This document shows positions 8,054-40,185 of a stretch of 44,165 bases of DNA, piece after piece. A program made the translations under genes and the position numbers. The stretch lies in NCBI GenBank assembly GCA_020353235.1, contig CP070693.1, positions 150,064 to 194,228 of the forward strand. The letters run 5' to 3'. This DNA is from Dehalococcoidia bacterium (GTDB lineage: Bacteria > Chloroflexota > Dehalococcoidia > Dehalococcoidales > JAUYDJ01). The notes beneath the pieces are model-generated. The model was not told the DNA's origin and made no database searches. It saw nothing but the letters and a program-made list of their open reading frames with translations. Each line of letters starts with the position of its first letter. Within the stretch, counting starts at the first letter, position 1.

Positions 8054-9481
8054 TTGAAAAATAATCCTATTAAATTCGGTACCGATGGCTGGCGGGGGAT
8101 TATTGCCCAGGACTTCACCTTTGATAATGTGCGGGCTTGTGCCCAGGGGGTGGCTCATTATCTAAGGCAGGCAAATCTGGCCGATAGGGGGCTGATTATC
8201 GGCTATGATACCCGCTTTGCCTCGGAAGATTTTGCGTCAACCGCCGCTGAAGTGGTTGCCGGCAACGGTATTAAAGTCTATCTCTGTCCCAAGCCAACCC
8301 CCACACCGCTGGTGAGCTATGGGGTTCTGGCGCAGAAGGCGGGTGGGGCGATTATTATCACCGCCAGTCATAACGCGGGCAACTGGAACGGCTTTAAATA
8401 CAAGGATGAGCGGGGCTCCAGTGCCCCCGATGAGGTTACCGCCCGCATGGAAGCCCATACCAACCAGGCTCTGGACACCGGGAAAATAGCGCGCTTACTG
8501 CTGTCAGAAGCCCTTTCTCAGGGGTTGATAGAATACTGTGACCTGGACGCGGTCTACTTTGCACAGGTAGGCCGGCTCATCAATCTTGATGAGCTACGCC
8601 GAGCCAAGCTGAAGATAGTAGTTGACGCCATGTATGGCGCCGGGGTGGGCTATCTCAAGGCGTTGCTCGGCGGGGACAACATGGAGGTGGTGGAAATAAA
8701 TGGCGAGCGCAATCCTATCTTCCCCGGGATTCGCCCCGAGCCGATTGCGGTTAATTTAGGCAAGCTCTCGGCGACGATTAAAGAGCAGGGGGCGGGCGTC
8801 GGTCTGGCGACCGATGGTGATGCCGACCGGATGGGGGTGGTTGATGAGAAGGGGGTATTTTTAACTCAGCTTCAGGTCTTTGCCCTGCTTTGTCTCTATT
8901 TCCTGGAGGTGCGCGGAGAGCGCGGCCCGATTGTAAAAACGATAACTTCTTCCAATATGCTCAATCGGATGGGGGAGATGTTTGGCGTGCCGGTGTATGA
9001 AACTGCGGTGGGCTTCAAGTATATTGCCCCCATAATGCTTGCCCGCAAGGCGGTTATCGGTGGGGAGGAGAGCGGTGGCTACGGTTTCCGGGGGCATGTG
9101 CTGGAGCGCGATGGCATTCTGGCCAGCCTCTATTTCCTCGACCTGATACTCAAGACGGGGAAAACCCCCTCCCAGCTTCTGGACTATCTCTACAGCAAGG
9201 TAGGCCCTCACTATTATGAGCGGGTAGATGTGGAGTTTCCCGCCGAGCAGCGGGAGGCGATAACCAACCGGGTTAAAAAGAGCTCACCCAAGACGATTGA
9301 CGGGGTTAAAGTAGCCAAGATAGATACCACCGATGGCTTTCGCTTTGTCCTTGATGATGGCTCTTGGCTGCTCATCAGATTTTCGGGGACCGAGCCACTG
9401 CTACGCATCTACTCGGAAACCGATTCCGCTGACCGTGCCCAGAAACTGCTCAAAATAGGTCAGGAAATCGCCGGGGTTTGA
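8054..9481 (+). CDS. Phosphoglucomutase/phosphomannomutase family protein
   Basis: A 475-residue alpha-D-phosphohexomutase, interconverting hexose-1- and hexose-6-phosphates through a phosphoserine. The four family motifs are in order: IITASHNAGNWNGFKYK with the active-site Ser, the metal-binding TDGDADRMGVVDEKG, the sugar-binding GGEESGGYGF, and the phosphate-binding RFSGTEPLLRIYSE. The N-terminus KFGTDGWRGIIAQDFT is typical. Start is TTG at 8054 with AGGGGATAGGG just upstream. Whether it prefers glucose, mannose or glucosamine phosphate cannot be told from sequence. It is the last gene of the plus-strand run and converges on rpsI. Confidence 0.92.
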   Translation: MKNNPIKFGTDGWRGIIAQDFTFDNVRACAQGVAHYLRQANLADRGLIIGYDTRFASEDFASTAAEVVAGNGIKVYLCPKPTPTPLVSYGVLAQKAGGAIIITASHNAGNWNGFKYKDERGSSAPDEVTARMEAHTNQALDTGKIARLLLSEALSQGLIEYCDLDAVYFAQVGRLINLDELRRAKLKIVVDAMYGAGVGYLKALLGGDNMEVVEINGERNPIFPGIRPEPIAVNLGKLSATIKEQGAGVGLATDGDADRMGVVDEKGVFLTQLQVFALLCLYFLEVRGERGPIVKTITSSNMLNRMGEMFGVPVYETAVGFKYIAPIMLARKAVIGGEESGGYGFRGHVLERDGILASLYFLDLILKTGKTPSQLLDYLYSKVGPHYYERVDVEFPAEQREAITNRVKKSSPKTIDGVKVAKIDTTDGFRFVLDDGSWLLIRFSGTEPLLRIYSETDSADRAQKLLKIGQEIAGV

Positions 9482-32238: not shown

Positions 32239-32323
32239 GGGGAAGTGCCGGAACTGGCAGACGGGCATGACTTAGGATCATGTGTCGCAAGGCGTGGGGG
32301 TTCGAGTCCCCCCTTCCCCACCA
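32239..32323 (+). tRNA. tRNA-Leu (TAG anticodon)
   Basis: An 85-base class II tRNA. Acceptor GGGGAAG (32239-32245) pairs with CTTCCCC (32313-32319). Anticodon stem CATGA / TCATG encloses CTTAGGA with TAG at 32273-32275. The long variable arm (TGTCGCAAGGCGT region) and T arm GGGGG TTCGAGT CCCCC follow. The CCA end is encoded. Confidence 0.97.
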
Positions 32324-32343: not shown

Positions 32344-33495
32344 CTAACCCCCCGGTTTCACCAGGCGTTTGCCCAGAAGGTTCATTTTAAATTGGCGGAT
32401 GCTCTCCGGGGGTATTACCTCCCCCTTGGGGCTCCTGAAGTAGAGGGCATCAAAGGGGCACTGCACAATGCAGGCGCCGCACCGGATACACTGTTCGGCC
32501 CGGGGCATGGTGGCGGTGTGCTTTTCTTTATTTGCCTGATAGCAATTTCGGGGGCAGACCTGCTCGCAGAAAGCGGCCCCCCGGCATTTTGTCTTATCAA
32601 GATAGACTTTGAGCAGTCTATCTTCACTCAGGCTGCTATGAAATGTCGGGGTGCTACCGGCCAGGTCCATGCTCAAAACGATAATAACGACTAGGGAGGC
32701 AAAGCCCCAGCGCAGGATGAATCCCCCGCTGAACTGGTCGGTGGCCAAGCTGTAAGCAATAAGACCGATGAGGACAACACCCCACAGAACCAGTTGAAAC
32801 CCGCCCCGCCCGAAATCGAAAAAGATGAAGCCGATTCTTCTGCCTTTAGCGGTTAGCCATCGGCTGTAGAGGGGGAAGGCTAAAAACATCAGCAGGGCCA
32901 TACCCCAGACCAGGGCGGCCAGGTAGGGGATAGACTGGCGCCAGAAGGGGAGGGCGATAAGGACGGCAATGAGGGAAATGGGGAAAGCCCAGGCAATAGC
33001 CATCTCCAAGCGTGCCGTCCCGGGAAAGCTGGCTTCTCTCATTTGAGGCGTTTTCTTCAGCCCGTTATGCAAAAATTCAGGGATGTCTTTGGCGTAGACC
33101 GGCCCCCAGATTACCTTCCATCCCGTCTTGCTATGGATAGCCCTGGTTTCAACACCGGTAGCCGCCAGCTGGGGCAGAATCACATTGCGGTGGTTCACCA
33201 GCTTTTCGATGTCGCTGGTTTTCAGAGCTGAAATAACGCTGTGATTGTTAAAGTGACCGCCGGCCGAGGCACACCAGATGTTGATTCCCCGGCTGTTGGC
33301 GACCAGAAGATAGGCATCTATCCCCTTTAAGGCTCTCTTTACCCGGGCGATGGTCAGGTGGTAGTTGCCGGTCAGCAGCACCGGTGAGTCTTTACCGGGG
33401 TGGCCCATCCTGATGATACCGGTGCGGGTGGGGAGGGGCATCATTCTGAGCAGGGTTTCCACGATGTTGATGATGATATAGCTCAGTAAATTCAT
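32344..33495 (-). CDS. HgcA-HgcB-like fusion: membrane corrinoid protein with C-terminal ferredoxin
   Basis: A 383-residue protein. Residues about 20-160 match the HgcA/CdhD corrinoid-binding domain: GHPGKDSPVLLTGNYHLTI, then INIWCASAGGHFNN with C75 at the place of the cobalt-ligating cap-helix Cys, then VNHRNVILPQLAATGVE and KVIWGPVYAKDIPEFL. Residues about 165-280 form four or five membrane helices, ending MDLAGSTPTFHSS as HgcA does. Residues 300-350 are an HgcB-like ferredoxin: C304, C310, C314, C318, then a full CIRCGACIVQCP (C336, C339, C342, C346). In HgcA the cap motif is N(V/I)WCA(A/G)GK; here the Lys is lost. HgcAB methylates mercury, whereas fused relatives have not been linked to that activity. 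Role is probably corrinoid methyl transfer at the membrane with an unknown acceptor. Start ATG 33495 is one base after the methyltransferase stop. Confidence 0.85.
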   Translation of the reverse strand: MNLLSYIIINIVETLLRMMPLPTRTGIIRMGHPGKDSPVLLTGNYHLTIARVKRALKGIDAYLLVANSRGINIWCASAGGHFNNHSVISALKTSDIEKLVNHRNVILPQLAATGVETRAIHSKTGWKVIWGPVYAKDIPEFLHNGLKKTPQMREASFPGTARLEMAIAWAFPISLIAVLIALPFWRQSIPYLAALVWGMALLMFLAFPLYSRWLTAKGRRIGFIFFDFGRGGFQLVLWGVVLIGLIAYSLATDQFSGGFILRWGFASLVVIIVLSMDLAGSTPTFHSSLSEDRLLKVYLDKTKCRGAAFCEQVCPRNCYQANKEKHTATMPRAEQCIRCGACIVQCPFDALYFRSPKGEVIPPESIRQFKMNLLGKRLVKPGG

Positions 33496-33496
33496 C

Positions 33497-34159
33497 CTAT
33501 TGTCTCTCCGGTTTTCGGGCGACCAGCTCAACAAAATCCCCCAGCTTATTGGGCTTAAGTGACTTTATTATCAGGCCCGCCTCCCTTACTTTCTCCGGCA
33601 GGTCTTTTACGGCGTGAGTTGTGGTCTGGGTAATAATATAGGTGATTACGACCAGCGGGATTCTGATTAAGCCGTGGGCCAGCCACTTGAGGGGGTTTTG
33701 CGGCCTTACTTCATCGGCGACGAGAAGCCAGCCGCCCGGCTTCAGGATTCTATTTATTTCTTTCAGGGTATAGGCGAGCTCGTCTGCGGTCAGTTCGGAG
33801 AAGCAGAGCCCGCTCATCACCACGTCGTAGCTTTCCGGTGGCTCACTGCCGAGCTCAGCCACCCCCATCTCAGCGAATTCTATCTCCGGGCTGAACCGGG
33901 CGGCTTCGGCCCGCCGGCGGGCGACGGACAGCATCTCGGGGTTAACATCGATCCCTTTGACGGTGGCTCCCTTGGCGGCGGCCCGCAGCGTCAGGCTGCC
34001 GGTGCCGCAGCCGATATCCAGCACCTTCTGCCCCCTTTTAATCGGCGAAGTCAAATGCTCATAAATCCGGTCTAATCTGCCCAGTGTCAGCAGGCGGAGG
34101 CCACGGTCATACCGGCTGGCCGTGGATTCCAGTATCTTCATTAAGACATAGGTGCTCAT
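33497..34159 (-). CDS. CpaM-like corrinoid protein-associated SAM methyltransferase
   Basis: A 220-residue class I SAM-dependent methyltransferase. Motif I is VLDIGCGTGSLTLRAAAKG (about residues 46-64), followed by VKGIDVNPEMLSVARRRAE and the post-motif INRILKPGGWLLVADEV. The N-terminus MKILESTASRYDRGLRLLTL resembles the family named for association with HgcAB-like corrinoid proteins. A hydrophobic stretch RIPLVVITYIITQTT (about residues 169-183) may touch the membrane. It is the first gene of a two-gene operon with the HgcAB-like fusion, one base apart, behind the promoter at 34192-34219. A UbiE-like quinone methyltransferase is the main alternative; the pairing argues against it. Confidence 0.75.
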   Translation of the reverse strand: MSTYVLMKILESTASRYDRGLRLLTLGRLDRIYEHLTSPIKRGQKVLDIGCGTGSLTLRAAAKGATVKGIDVNPEMLSVARRRAEAARFSPEIEFAEMGVAELGSEPPESYDVVMSGLCFSELTADELAYTLKEINRILKPGGWLLVADEVRPQNPLKWLAHGLIRIPLVVITYIITQTTTHAVKDLPEKVREAGLIIKSLKPNKLGDFVELVARKPERQ

Positions 34160-37680: not shown

Positions 37681-38568
37681 TTACTCCTTCCAGTGCCAAG
37701 TGCTGCCCCTTTGATATAGATTTTCCCGAAACACATCGGGATACCGGGCAATAACCTGCCTGACTTTGGTGGCTGGGGTTACTTTGGCTAGCTGCCCGAC
37801 GCTCCGGTTGGCTCTGGCAGCGATAATGGCTGCCTGGGCAAGTTCCAGCCCGGCATAGGCAAGGGCGGCAACCAGTCCGGTAATGGTATCGCCGGTACCA
37901 CCGATGGCTTCCAGCGCCGGTATATCGGGCTCAGTGATGGTAGCCACGATATTGCCGTCATTGATAATATAATCAATGGCGCCCTTGACCAGCAGTAGTT
38001 TGGCGGCGCTGTTATCGTGGTAAGCGGCTTCAGCCAGCCTCGGCGTCCGAGTGATATCGGTATCAAATAGATGCCGGTTGATATAGGCGGGGTGGGTAAC
38101 CTTAGGGTCAGCCAGAAAAGCCATCTCGGTGGCATCGGGGGTGAAGATGTCAAATTCGCTGGCCAGCCCGGCGGCTTTAGCCGAGTACATTGAAGCCGCA
38201 TCCGCAATCATTAGCGGTCGGCGCGGGCATTTATTAACCGCCTCACAGAGTCTTTTCGTCTGCCTCATATCGGGCAGCCAGTAGTGCAGCACCAGTACTT
38301 CCGGGGAAAGCTCGGCGATATGTTCAATGAGATACTCATAAATCTGGCGGCTGCCCTTGCCCTGCCCGATGTCTCCGGCGAGCAGTATCTGGGGGGCGTC
38401 CCGCCCCAGATAGCTCGTGGTGGCCAGAGCCGCACTGATAGTAGCCGTGGTCCCCTGGGTGCAGGGAATAAGCTGCCCGTCAACAACCAGGGATTCGTCT
38501 TCTGTTCTGGCGGTGGTCAGGGTCAGGGGTAGTTCTTTGGCGGGGACGGTCCCGGCAATGAGCATCAT
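37681..38568 (-). CDS. Ribokinase-fold, NNRD-like protein of the YedE cluster
   Basis: A 295-residue protein related to the C-terminal domain of NAD(P)H-hydrate dehydratase and to sugar kinases. Visible motifs are VVDGQLIPCTQGTTATISAA (about residues 28-47), LLAGDIGQGKGSRQIYEYL, FDIFTPDATEMAFLADP, LLLVKGAIDYIINDG and the catalytic-type EAIGGTGDTITGLVAALAYA with GTGD near 224-227. ATG 38568 overlaps the DUF3343 gene's stop; the frame is open further upstream but is not supported there. The substrate is unknown. The fixed place beside YedE, DUF3343 and TusA suggests a selenium/sulfur role rather than repair of hydrated NAD. Confidence 0.7.
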   Translation of the reverse strand: MMLIAGTVPAKELPLTLTTARTEDESLVVDGQLIPCTQGTTATISAALATTSYLGRDAPQILLAGDIGQGKGSRQIYEYLIEHIAELSPEVLVLHYWLPDMRQTKRLCEAVNKCPRRPLMIADAASMYSAKAAGLASEFDIFTPDATEMAFLADPKVTHPAYINRHLFDTDITRTPRLAEAAYHDNSAAKLLLVKGAIDYIINDGNIVATITEPDIPALEAIGGTGDTITGLVAALAYAGLELAQAAIIAARANRSVGQLAKVTPATKVRQVIARYPDVFRENLYQRGSTWHWKE

Positions 38569-39101
38569 TCTGTTTCGTCTCCCCTCCAGAGGCGGAGGCA
38601 CTCCTCCAGGGCGCGGTCTAACATCAGGGCGCACAGGGTGAAGCCGACATCCCTCGGCCGGGGCGCTTCGGTTAGCGGTTTATCAATCAGCTCGGCATGC
38701 AGCTGGGGAATATCGGGGCAGCCACCACCGGAGGTATTGACGATAACACCGCTCTTTTTAGCAAAGGTGAGCTTCATATTGGCTGCCTTGACCATGGTCC
38801 AGTCGCCGAAATCGGTTATTTTGACGATTTCCAGTATTCCCTCAGTGCCCGCTTTCAGCGGAGTTACCCTGACGTAGCCGACCTCTTTTTCCTTGAGGAC
38901 GCGCTCAATACCGGGCTGCTCCACCAGATTTATGGCTACCGCCAGGTCGCAGCCCCTGCGCAGCTCGGGTGGCGGTGCCACCAGCTTGACCAGATAGCCG
39001 GCCCGGCTGAGGACTTTCTCTGCCTGCATGGCATCATGGACATCCATGAAAAGCACCAGCCCATCGCCAGCAAAACTTGGCTTCTTTCTGAAAAATGCCA
39101 T
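38565..39101 (-). CDS. DUF3343 domain protein, two-domain
   Basis: A 178-residue protein. Residues about 12-80 match DUF3343, a small domain found next to TusA/YedF and selenium genes: LVLFMDVHDAMQAEKVLSRA and KLVAPPPELRRGCDLAVAIN. Residues about 85-178 form a second segment (DFGDWTMVKAANMKLTFAKK, VNTSGGGCPDIPQLHAEL, DVGFTLCALMLDRALEE) that I do not recognise. Cys at GGGCPD and TLCALM may be functional. It overlaps the kinase-like gene by four bases. It may handle selenium or sulfur, which is inference from context. Confidence 0.65.
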   Translation of the reverse strand: MAFFRKKPSFAGDGLVLFMDVHDAMQAEKVLSRAGYLVKLVAPPPELRRGCDLAVAINLVEQPGIERVLKEKEVGYVRVTPLKAGTEGILEIVKITDFGDWTMVKAANMKLTFAKKSGVIVNTSGGGCPDIPQLHAELIDKPLTEAPRPRDVGFTLCALMLDRALEECLRLWRGDETE

Positions 39102-39114
39102 TGCTAGTTCCTGA

Positions 39115-40185
39115 TTACTCTCTCATTACCAGACCGATTATTACACAGAAGACCAGCCCGATAGTAACCGCCAGCGGACCCCAGGCGCCGGTGCCGTTCG
39201 GGCTTGAGGCGAGGAGGAAGTTATGGGCGATGGCTGCCCCGGCCAGAAAACCCAGTACTGTCACCCCGGCATCGGTATCGCCCTCCCCGGCGAGTATTAA
39301 ATTGCGTAGCGGGCAGCCACCGATTAGTGTCGCCGCCAGCCCGAGCAGCCCCATACCGAGAAAGTTCCAGAGGTGATTATCATGGGCTATCGGCTGGCTG
39401 GTAAAGCCCCAGTGGTAGATGCCCGTGGCGCCGAAGTTACCGACCACGTAATTGGTCACTAAAGCGGCGATGAAGAAGGCGATTACCCCGCTGAGGAGGT
39501 AGAAGTCCCTGACCAGAAAGACATCACGCCAGGCGCCGACGAAGCACATTCTGGTCCTCTGGGCGAGAAAGCTGACCACCAGACCGATAACCAGTGAAAC
39601 GGCCAGCGGGGCGTACATCGCCCCCGGGCCGGTCTCGCTGGCGAAGATGAAGCCGGGCTTGAATATAGCCAGCAGCAGCAGCCCCAGCATCAGGGCGGGC
39701 ATCGTCCAGCCGACCAGGGGGTGTATCCTGGTGGCGCGTCCCAGGTTGAAGCCTCTTTTCAGGAAGAGAATGCCCACCAATACCCCGGTGATTAATCCGG
39801 CCAGGGCGACCATGCCGTTCAGGTCGCCGCCGGCGATGCGCAGCATCATGCGAATCGGGCAGCCCAGAAAGACCAGAGCGCCAATCATAACCAGGGCACC
39901 CAGGATAAAGCGAACCAGGGGTGAAGCGCCACCCCGGGAACGAAACTCGCCGAAGGCGTAGGCGGTGATAAAAGCACCTAATAAAAAGCCGATGATTTCG
40001 GGACGGAGGTACTGGACTACCGCAGCCCGGTGCAGTCCGAGCGCACCGGCAACATCACGGAGGAAACAGGCTACGCAGATACCCATATTGGGCGGGTTGC
40101 CCCAGTTGGTCATCAGCGCCGCCAGGACTCCAAAAACGAGCCCGGCAATAATAATCCGAAACCTCGGCGTCAGCAGTAGCTTCAA
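39115..40185 (-). CDS. YedE/YeeE-family transporter (selenium or thiosulfate)
   Basis: A 356-residue membrane protein with about nine or ten helices. It has four conserved Cys regions: GNPPNMGICVACFLRDVAGA (C37 and C40), LGCPIRMMLRIAGGD, RTRMCFVGAWRDVFLV and IGGCPLRNLILAGEGDTDAG. These are typical of YeeE/TsuA thiosulfate transporters and of the seleno-YedE branch; the latter best fits the DUF3343-TusA neighbours. Start is TTG at 40185 overlapping the lgt stop. Substrate could be a reduced selenium or sulfur species. Confidence 0.85.
   Translation of the reverse strand: MKLLLTPRFRIIIAGLVFGVLAALMTNWGNPPNMGICVACFLRDVAGALGLHRAAVVQYLRPEIIGFLLGAFITAYAFGEFRSRGGASPLVRFILGALVMIGALVFLGCPIRMMLRIAGGDLNGMVALAGLITGVLVGILFLKRGFNLGRATRIHPLVGWTMPALMLGLLLLAIFKPGFIFASETGPGAMYAPLAVSLVIGLVVSFLAQRTRMCFVGAWRDVFLVRDFYLLSGVIAFFIAALVTNYVVGNFGATGIYHWGFTSQPIAHDNHLWNFLGMGLLGLAATLIGGCPLRNLILAGEGDTDAGVTVLGFLAGAAIAHNFLLASSPNGTGAWGPLAVTIGLVFCVIIGLVMRE

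Follow-up and report, generated by a model that had tools for sequence, protein, structure and literature searches.

The window, the whole stretch of 44,165 nucleotides of the Dehalococcoidia bacterium contig CP070693.1 that was analysed, encodes two adjoining genes on its minus strand. The downstream gene (32344..33495) begins with an ATG at 33495 and its stop ends at 32344, as placed by the first-pass annotation. It specifies a protein of 383 aa that is an ordinary member of the uncharacterised NCBIfam family HgcAB-like fusion protein, the NF043039 HgcAB_like profile matching residues 9-352 with 464.6 bits (cut-off 285), a whole-chain match well above chance level that covers nearly the full length and discloses no important difference from the family. 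The upstream gene (33497..34159, minus strand) encodes a class I SAM-dependent methyltransferase of 220 aa, CpaM, which scores 290.6 bits against the family profile NF043040 (cut-off 180) with no difference seen, and its stop lies one base ahead of the ATG of the HgcAB-like gene (TAG-G-ATG). The pair belongs to two families that NCBI has already named and associated; the name CpaM (corrinoid protein-associated methyltransferase) records this association, but neither fusions nor a function.

On the plus strand a tRNA-Leu gene (32239-32323) ends 20 bases from the HgcAB-like stop and is a possible insertion point of an acquired pair. Elsewhere in the window, a gene for a YedE-family putative selenium transporter (39115-40185, minus strand; TIGR04112, 478 bits) is adjoined by uncharacterised genes at 38565-39101 and 37681-38634. 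Near the operon no riboswitch was found, whether in the window itself or among 13 relatives. At one related locus (L038:4524-4746) a HEARO RNA element lies between cpaM and the hgcAB-like gene, with a second copy at 8825-9048.

Domain architecture and cap motif of the HgcAB-like protein

Pfam and the NF043039 score confirm that a single gene joins a corrinoid domain of the HgcA type to membrane helices and a ferredoxin of the HgcB type, as had been proposed. The predicted corrinoid-binding domain (residues 20-146; 33058..33438, minus strand) contains a Pfam CdhD match (PF03599, residues 20-141, E 1.4e-16). It is followed by a membrane region of four to five helices (residues 159-275; 32671..33021, minus strand), predicted in the structure model and by its match to the published HgcA model 9a0b, itself computed (Z 16.5, 260 residues), and by the ferredoxin domain (residues 296-356; 32428..32610, minus strand), in which Pfam recognizes two 4Fe-4S motifs at about 296-352. 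Confidence in the protein's AlphaFold model (pLDDT 86.6, pTM 0.85) is low around Cys75 (block mean 55), so that the corrinoid pocket is not resolved in it. Structure prediction had been put forward as a check on the corrinoid assignment, and at the level of the fold the outcome is favorable: the domain resembles that of the CFeSP large subunit, with a Z of about 18 to 2ycl, 4c1n and 2h9a and an rmsd of 1.7 A over 126 residues. Taken together, profile matches and model support membership of the HgcA/CdhE superfamily of corrinoid proteins, with binding of a corrinoid predicted.

The CFeSP large subunit (CdhE/AcsC) and its methyltransferase MeTr share with the window pair the corrinoid fold and the proposed logic of a separate methyltransferase that charges a corrinoid protein. 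However, the match to CFeSP is confined to its C-terminal ~125 residues, CFeSP has no Cys at the HgcA cobalt-ligand position (PMC7305189), unlike the window protein, and MeTr is a TIM barrel whereas CpaM has the class I SAM fold.

With canonical HgcA and HgcB the window protein has in common the corrinoid domain, the N-x-W-C-A cap core with the cobalt-ligand Cys, the membrane helices and the ferredoxin. It differs from them in being a single chain, in having a cap Gly for Lys, in its CpaM partner and in falling below the cut-offs of both profiles (NF040863 for HgcA, 166.5 bits versus 275; NF040864 for HgcB, 43.3 bits versus 99). The cap motif NIWCASAGGH (residues 72-81; 33253..33282, minus strand) keeps Cys75, the proposed cobalt ligand, and carries Gly79 at the Lys position (+4 after the Cys) of the canonical motif N(V/I)WCA(A/G)GK. 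NIWCASAGGHF and NVWCAAGKGTF align column for column with no gap; the retained Cys and the lost Lys of the first-pass annotation are thus upheld, and no residue is inserted in the motif. Also discarded was the idea that the change is an oddity of the window gene, since Gly occupies this position in 72/77 HgcAB-like relatives and is the family norm. The cap Lys occurs in 30 of 34 canonical HgcA and in none of 77 CpaM-linked proteins (Fisher p 4e-23, a value that overstates independence, the compared sequences being kin).

Pairing and fusion of CpaM with HgcA-like proteins

The neighborhood of the gene was analysed in 80 relatives' loci from species-representative genomes of Desulfobacterota, Acidobacteriota, Chloroflexota, Aminicenantes, Neomarinimicrobiota, KSB1, Binatota, Myxococcota, Archaeoglobus, Heimdallarchaeota, Thermoproteota and others; pairing counts include the window locus and a few extra Chloroflexota loci. 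Of the 71 loci whose upstream DNA reaches far enough, 69 have CpaM, as the adjoining upstream gene on the same strand in 61 and as a fusion in 8; seven other loci that lack a complete CpaM are situated at contig ends. Only two of the 71 have no CpaM, namely L098, a divergent Spirochaete member with none upstream, and L061, where the first ~13 cpaM codons run into the hgcAB-like gene (L061:5012-5101), a deletion or misassembly having taken the rest of cpaM. A CpaM-to-ferredoxin join resembling that of L061 was also observed at L158. No third conserved neighbor recurs across the ~80 loci.

The reverse association was assessed in a sample of 400 Chloroflexota and 118 Desulfobacterota genomes. CpaM is encoded by 12 of these 518, nearly always beside an HgcA-like gene or as a fusion with it. 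Two genomes depart from this: G192 holds only a CpaM-ferredoxin deletion remnant, and in G424 a truncated CpaM and an HgcA-like gene are on separate contigs. Among the Desulfobacterota genomes above the canonical HgcA cut-off (n=28), CpaM is found only in G416, which also has an HgcAB-like pair, and G499 combines HgcA fragments below the cut-off with a CpaM pair. CpaM was found beside canonical hgcA in 0/30 Desulfobacterota loci and in 0/28 loci of the archaeal phylum to which Archaeoglobus belongs; both HgcAB-like genes of this phylum do adjoin one. None scored above the cut-off in six canonical-HgcA genomes searched whole. Distances among CpaM proteins follow those among their HgcA-like partners (r 0.85, 63 pairs; best of 2000 permutations 0.32), a co-variation that partly reflects shared descent of linked genes.

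CpaM and HgcA form a single polypeptide at L006, L007/L099, L100, L104, L106, L109 and L165, and also in the distant and very divergent L009 and L010 of Chloroflexota (cap NVWCASDAG). The L104 fusion lies on a complete chromosome, which makes an assembly error unlikely. Its model (pLDDT 84.4, pTM 0.78, with a low-confidence linker at residues 223-250) has a methyltransferase domain that matches SAM-bound class I methyltransferases with Z 20-23. A triple fusion, CpaM-HgcA-HgcB, occupies one frame of at least 553 aa at L163 (G480). The fusion of the Deltaproteobacteria genome RBG_13_61_14 (L165:739-2597; G570) has the cap NVWCSAGEGTF and is followed by a separate, canonical-type HgcB with GVAC and a CACAC C-terminus; it looks like an intermediate between the CpaM-linked proteins and canonical HgcAB. 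That of Candidatus Poribacteria (L109:4254-6475) has the cap NVWCAAGEGNF and a separate HgcB (GPGC, no Cys tail), in a genome that additionally carries a canonical HgcA (L164). Searches of three genomes per phylum in the phyla of these two loci recovered no more fusions of the L165 type.

Pairing and fusion bear on the site at which CpaM acts. HgcAB takes its methyl group from SAM via methyl-Co(III), with Co-thiolate ligation (PMC11588087). As this cobalt methylation needs no separate methyltransferase, CpaM might act on the acceptor instead, the HgcAB-like protein charging itself from SAM as HgcAB does and both proteins methylating the same substrate in successive steps. The resemblance of CpaM to UbiE/ArsM-type small-molecule methyltransferases is consistent with this arrangement. 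However, canonical HgcA is precisely the type that lacks CpaM, and the cap has Gly for Lys when CpaM is present, as expected for action at the corrinoid, and in several lineages CpaM is fused to the corrinoid domain itself.

ArsM binds the metalloid through conserved cysteines. CpaM shares the class I fold of ArsM (Z 20.1 to CrArsM 5evj), has an intact SAM motif and scores 66 bits against an ArsM-type model, but that score is far below the ArsM cut-offs and the metalloid-binding Cys set is lacking: among 63 CpaM only the generic Cys51 of GCGTG is well conserved, Cys119 being present in 34/63. With no well-conserved Cys beyond GCGTG, CpaM cannot bind a metalloid in the ArsM manner, and successive methylation of one acceptor appears rather doubtful. 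Transfer by CpaM to the cobalt of its partner is the reading preferred here.

Phylogeny and acquisition

In a tree of 274 columns rooted on CdhE, the window gene falls inside the HgcA/CdhE superfamily, the placement on which the first-pass reading depended. Canonical HgcA forms one clade (100/100) with the window gene outside, and CdhE a separate one (100/99) that likewise does not include it. L109 and L165 are sister to canonical HgcA (99/92), followed by the other CpaM-linked proteins and, deepest, by L009/L010 (96/90). With this rooting CpaM would be ancestral and lost in mercury methylators. A firm claim to this effect was dropped, given that the outcome of the AU test depends on columns and taxa: a single CpaM-linked clade is not rejected on 157 columns (p 0.60), is marginally rejected with more columns and L165 (p 0.044), and is not rejected when the long-branched L009/L010 are left out (p 0.56). 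It is only as a tentative proposal that the substrate of CpaM, as a class I SAM methyltransferase, would be corrinoid cobalt and that mercury-methylating HgcA would stem from a CpaM-dependent ancestor that lost its partner, L165 and L109 being relics of the stage in between.

The window gene groups with L060 of Desulfurococcales (99/96), and its nearest kin are archaeal and Desulfobacterales members. No HgcAB-like gene was found in 30 relatives of the source lineage (29 sharing its order and 1 its family). The grouping with L060 and the absence from these relatives, nearly all of the same order, make horizontal acquisition likely; vertical inheritance in the source lineage was rejected on the 0/30 count. 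Fused HgcAB sequences from Thermococci, Atribacteria, Aminicenantes and Chloroflexi already appear in published trees (PMC7573106).

This distribution also bears on a possible role in demethylation or C1 metabolism, in which methyl-corrinoid would pass its methyl group to SAH, homocysteine or the CODH/ACS pathway of the genome. The genome does have two further PF03599 (CdhD family) genes, read as CdhE and CdhD, and the corrinoid domain is CFeSP-like. Yet no linkage to C1 genes is seen in ~80 loci, the HgcAB-like gene is missing from the 30 relatives, many Chloroflexota genomes have CdhE-type matches without it, and moving a methyl group from a corrinoid onto SAH is uphill. Such a role is considered improbable.

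The ferredoxin, mercury and a putative methyl-transfer module

The window ferredoxin differs from HgcB in having neither Cys73, nor the C-terminal Cys, nor one cluster Cys. Where HgcB is defined by two CxxCxxCxxxCP motifs, its first motif reads C304-x2-A307-x2-C310-x3-C314-P, with Ala in place of the second Cys; the second motif, C336-x2-C339-x2-C342-x3-C346-P, is complete. The same Cys is replaced in 54/68 relatives, and a first motif of this kind is predicted to hold a 3Fe or an unusual 4Fe cluster. No equivalent of HgcB Cys73 or of the C-terminal Cys occurs in the window protein, which has no Cys beyond residue 346, while both are present in 26/26 canonical HgcB. Among relatives a clear Cys73-type residue is limited to L109 and L165, and Cys-rich tails are seen in L165 and in the L093/L094/L097 group. 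Mutation of Cys73 abolishes mercury methylation by HgcB, double mutation of the C-terminal Cys pair costs 95% of it, and full activity requires Cys73 plus at least one C-terminal Cys (PMC7305189).

These residues bear directly on the simplest reading of the name, that of a mercury methylase like HgcAB with its two proteins joined. The same domains, the kept cobalt-ligand Cys and the overall match to the HgcAB model speak for it. Against it stand the absent cap Lys and the lack in the window gene of the two Cys equivalents that all 26 canonical HgcB possess. In addition, no MeHg was made by Methanococcoides methylutens or Pyrococcus furiosus, described as carriers of a fused hgcAB (PMC5893877) that may belong to the NF043039 family. 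Because the ferredoxin is without the Hg-handling cysteines and these two reported organisms made no methylmercury, Hg is unlikely as acceptor, and a mercury methylase of the HgcAB kind is very improbable. The earlier statement that fused homologues have no proven function accords with the same report (PMC5893877).

With moderate confidence it is proposed instead that CpaM and the HgcAB-like protein make up a self-contained SAM-to-corrinoid methyl-transfer module whose acceptor is other than mercury. CpaM would bind SAM and donate its methyl, as a cation, to a Co(I) corrinoid in the HgcA-like domain, with Cys75 as the presumed lower cobalt ligand, and the fused ferredoxin may provide the low-potential electrons that make and regenerate Co(I). 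The resulting membrane-anchored methyl-Co(III) protein would methylate a small acceptor, for which a soft metal(loid), arsenic for example, is the most plausible candidate, possibly for its detoxification or volatilisation. The clearest pointer to such an acceptor is one locus (L087:3-4148) where the CpaM/HgcAB-like pair borders genes for ACR3, ArsG, ArsF and an efflux permease, together with that of an ArsR regulator, a full arsenic cluster present in only 1 of ~80 loci; no arsenic gene was found among the genes examined near the window pair. ArsR-type regulators lie upstream of L097 and L109 and an ArsR-type sequence upstream of L094, and ArsR-like genes also precede the canonical L108, L112 and L113. 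L093, L094 and L097 form a subgroup of the CpaM-linked proteins whose ferredoxin tails are very rich in Cys, and a DsbD/CcdA-like membrane gene is found downstream of L093.

The first-pass interpretation survives in that the protein is of the HgcA/CdhE corrinoid type with a retained Cys; its view of the cap change as peculiar to this gene does not, and CpaM, the absent HgcB cysteines and the existing NCBI family had been overlooked. No description of the CpaM-HgcA pairing was found within open-licence papers, and an earlier mention is possible. Within that literature, the near-obligate pairing and the figures for its exclusivity, the fusions of CpaM with HgcA alone or with HgcA and HgcB, the rule relating cap Lys to CpaM and the L109/L165 intermediates appear to be undescribed.

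SAM was reported as the methyl donor of HgcAB only in 2024. A related family, in which a dedicated SAM methyltransferase nearly always accompanies the same corrinoid domain and may even be fused to it, offers an assayable donor route and, for the question of how and why HgcAB arose, an ancestral function to seek. In surveys, likely mercury methylators can be told from look-alikes by a cap Lys, Cys73, a C-terminal Cys and the absence of CpaM. Finally, as the two CpaM-HgcA fusions L109 and L165 group with canonical HgcA, a placement that is rooting-dependent, mercury methylators may derive from CpaM-dependent ancestors.
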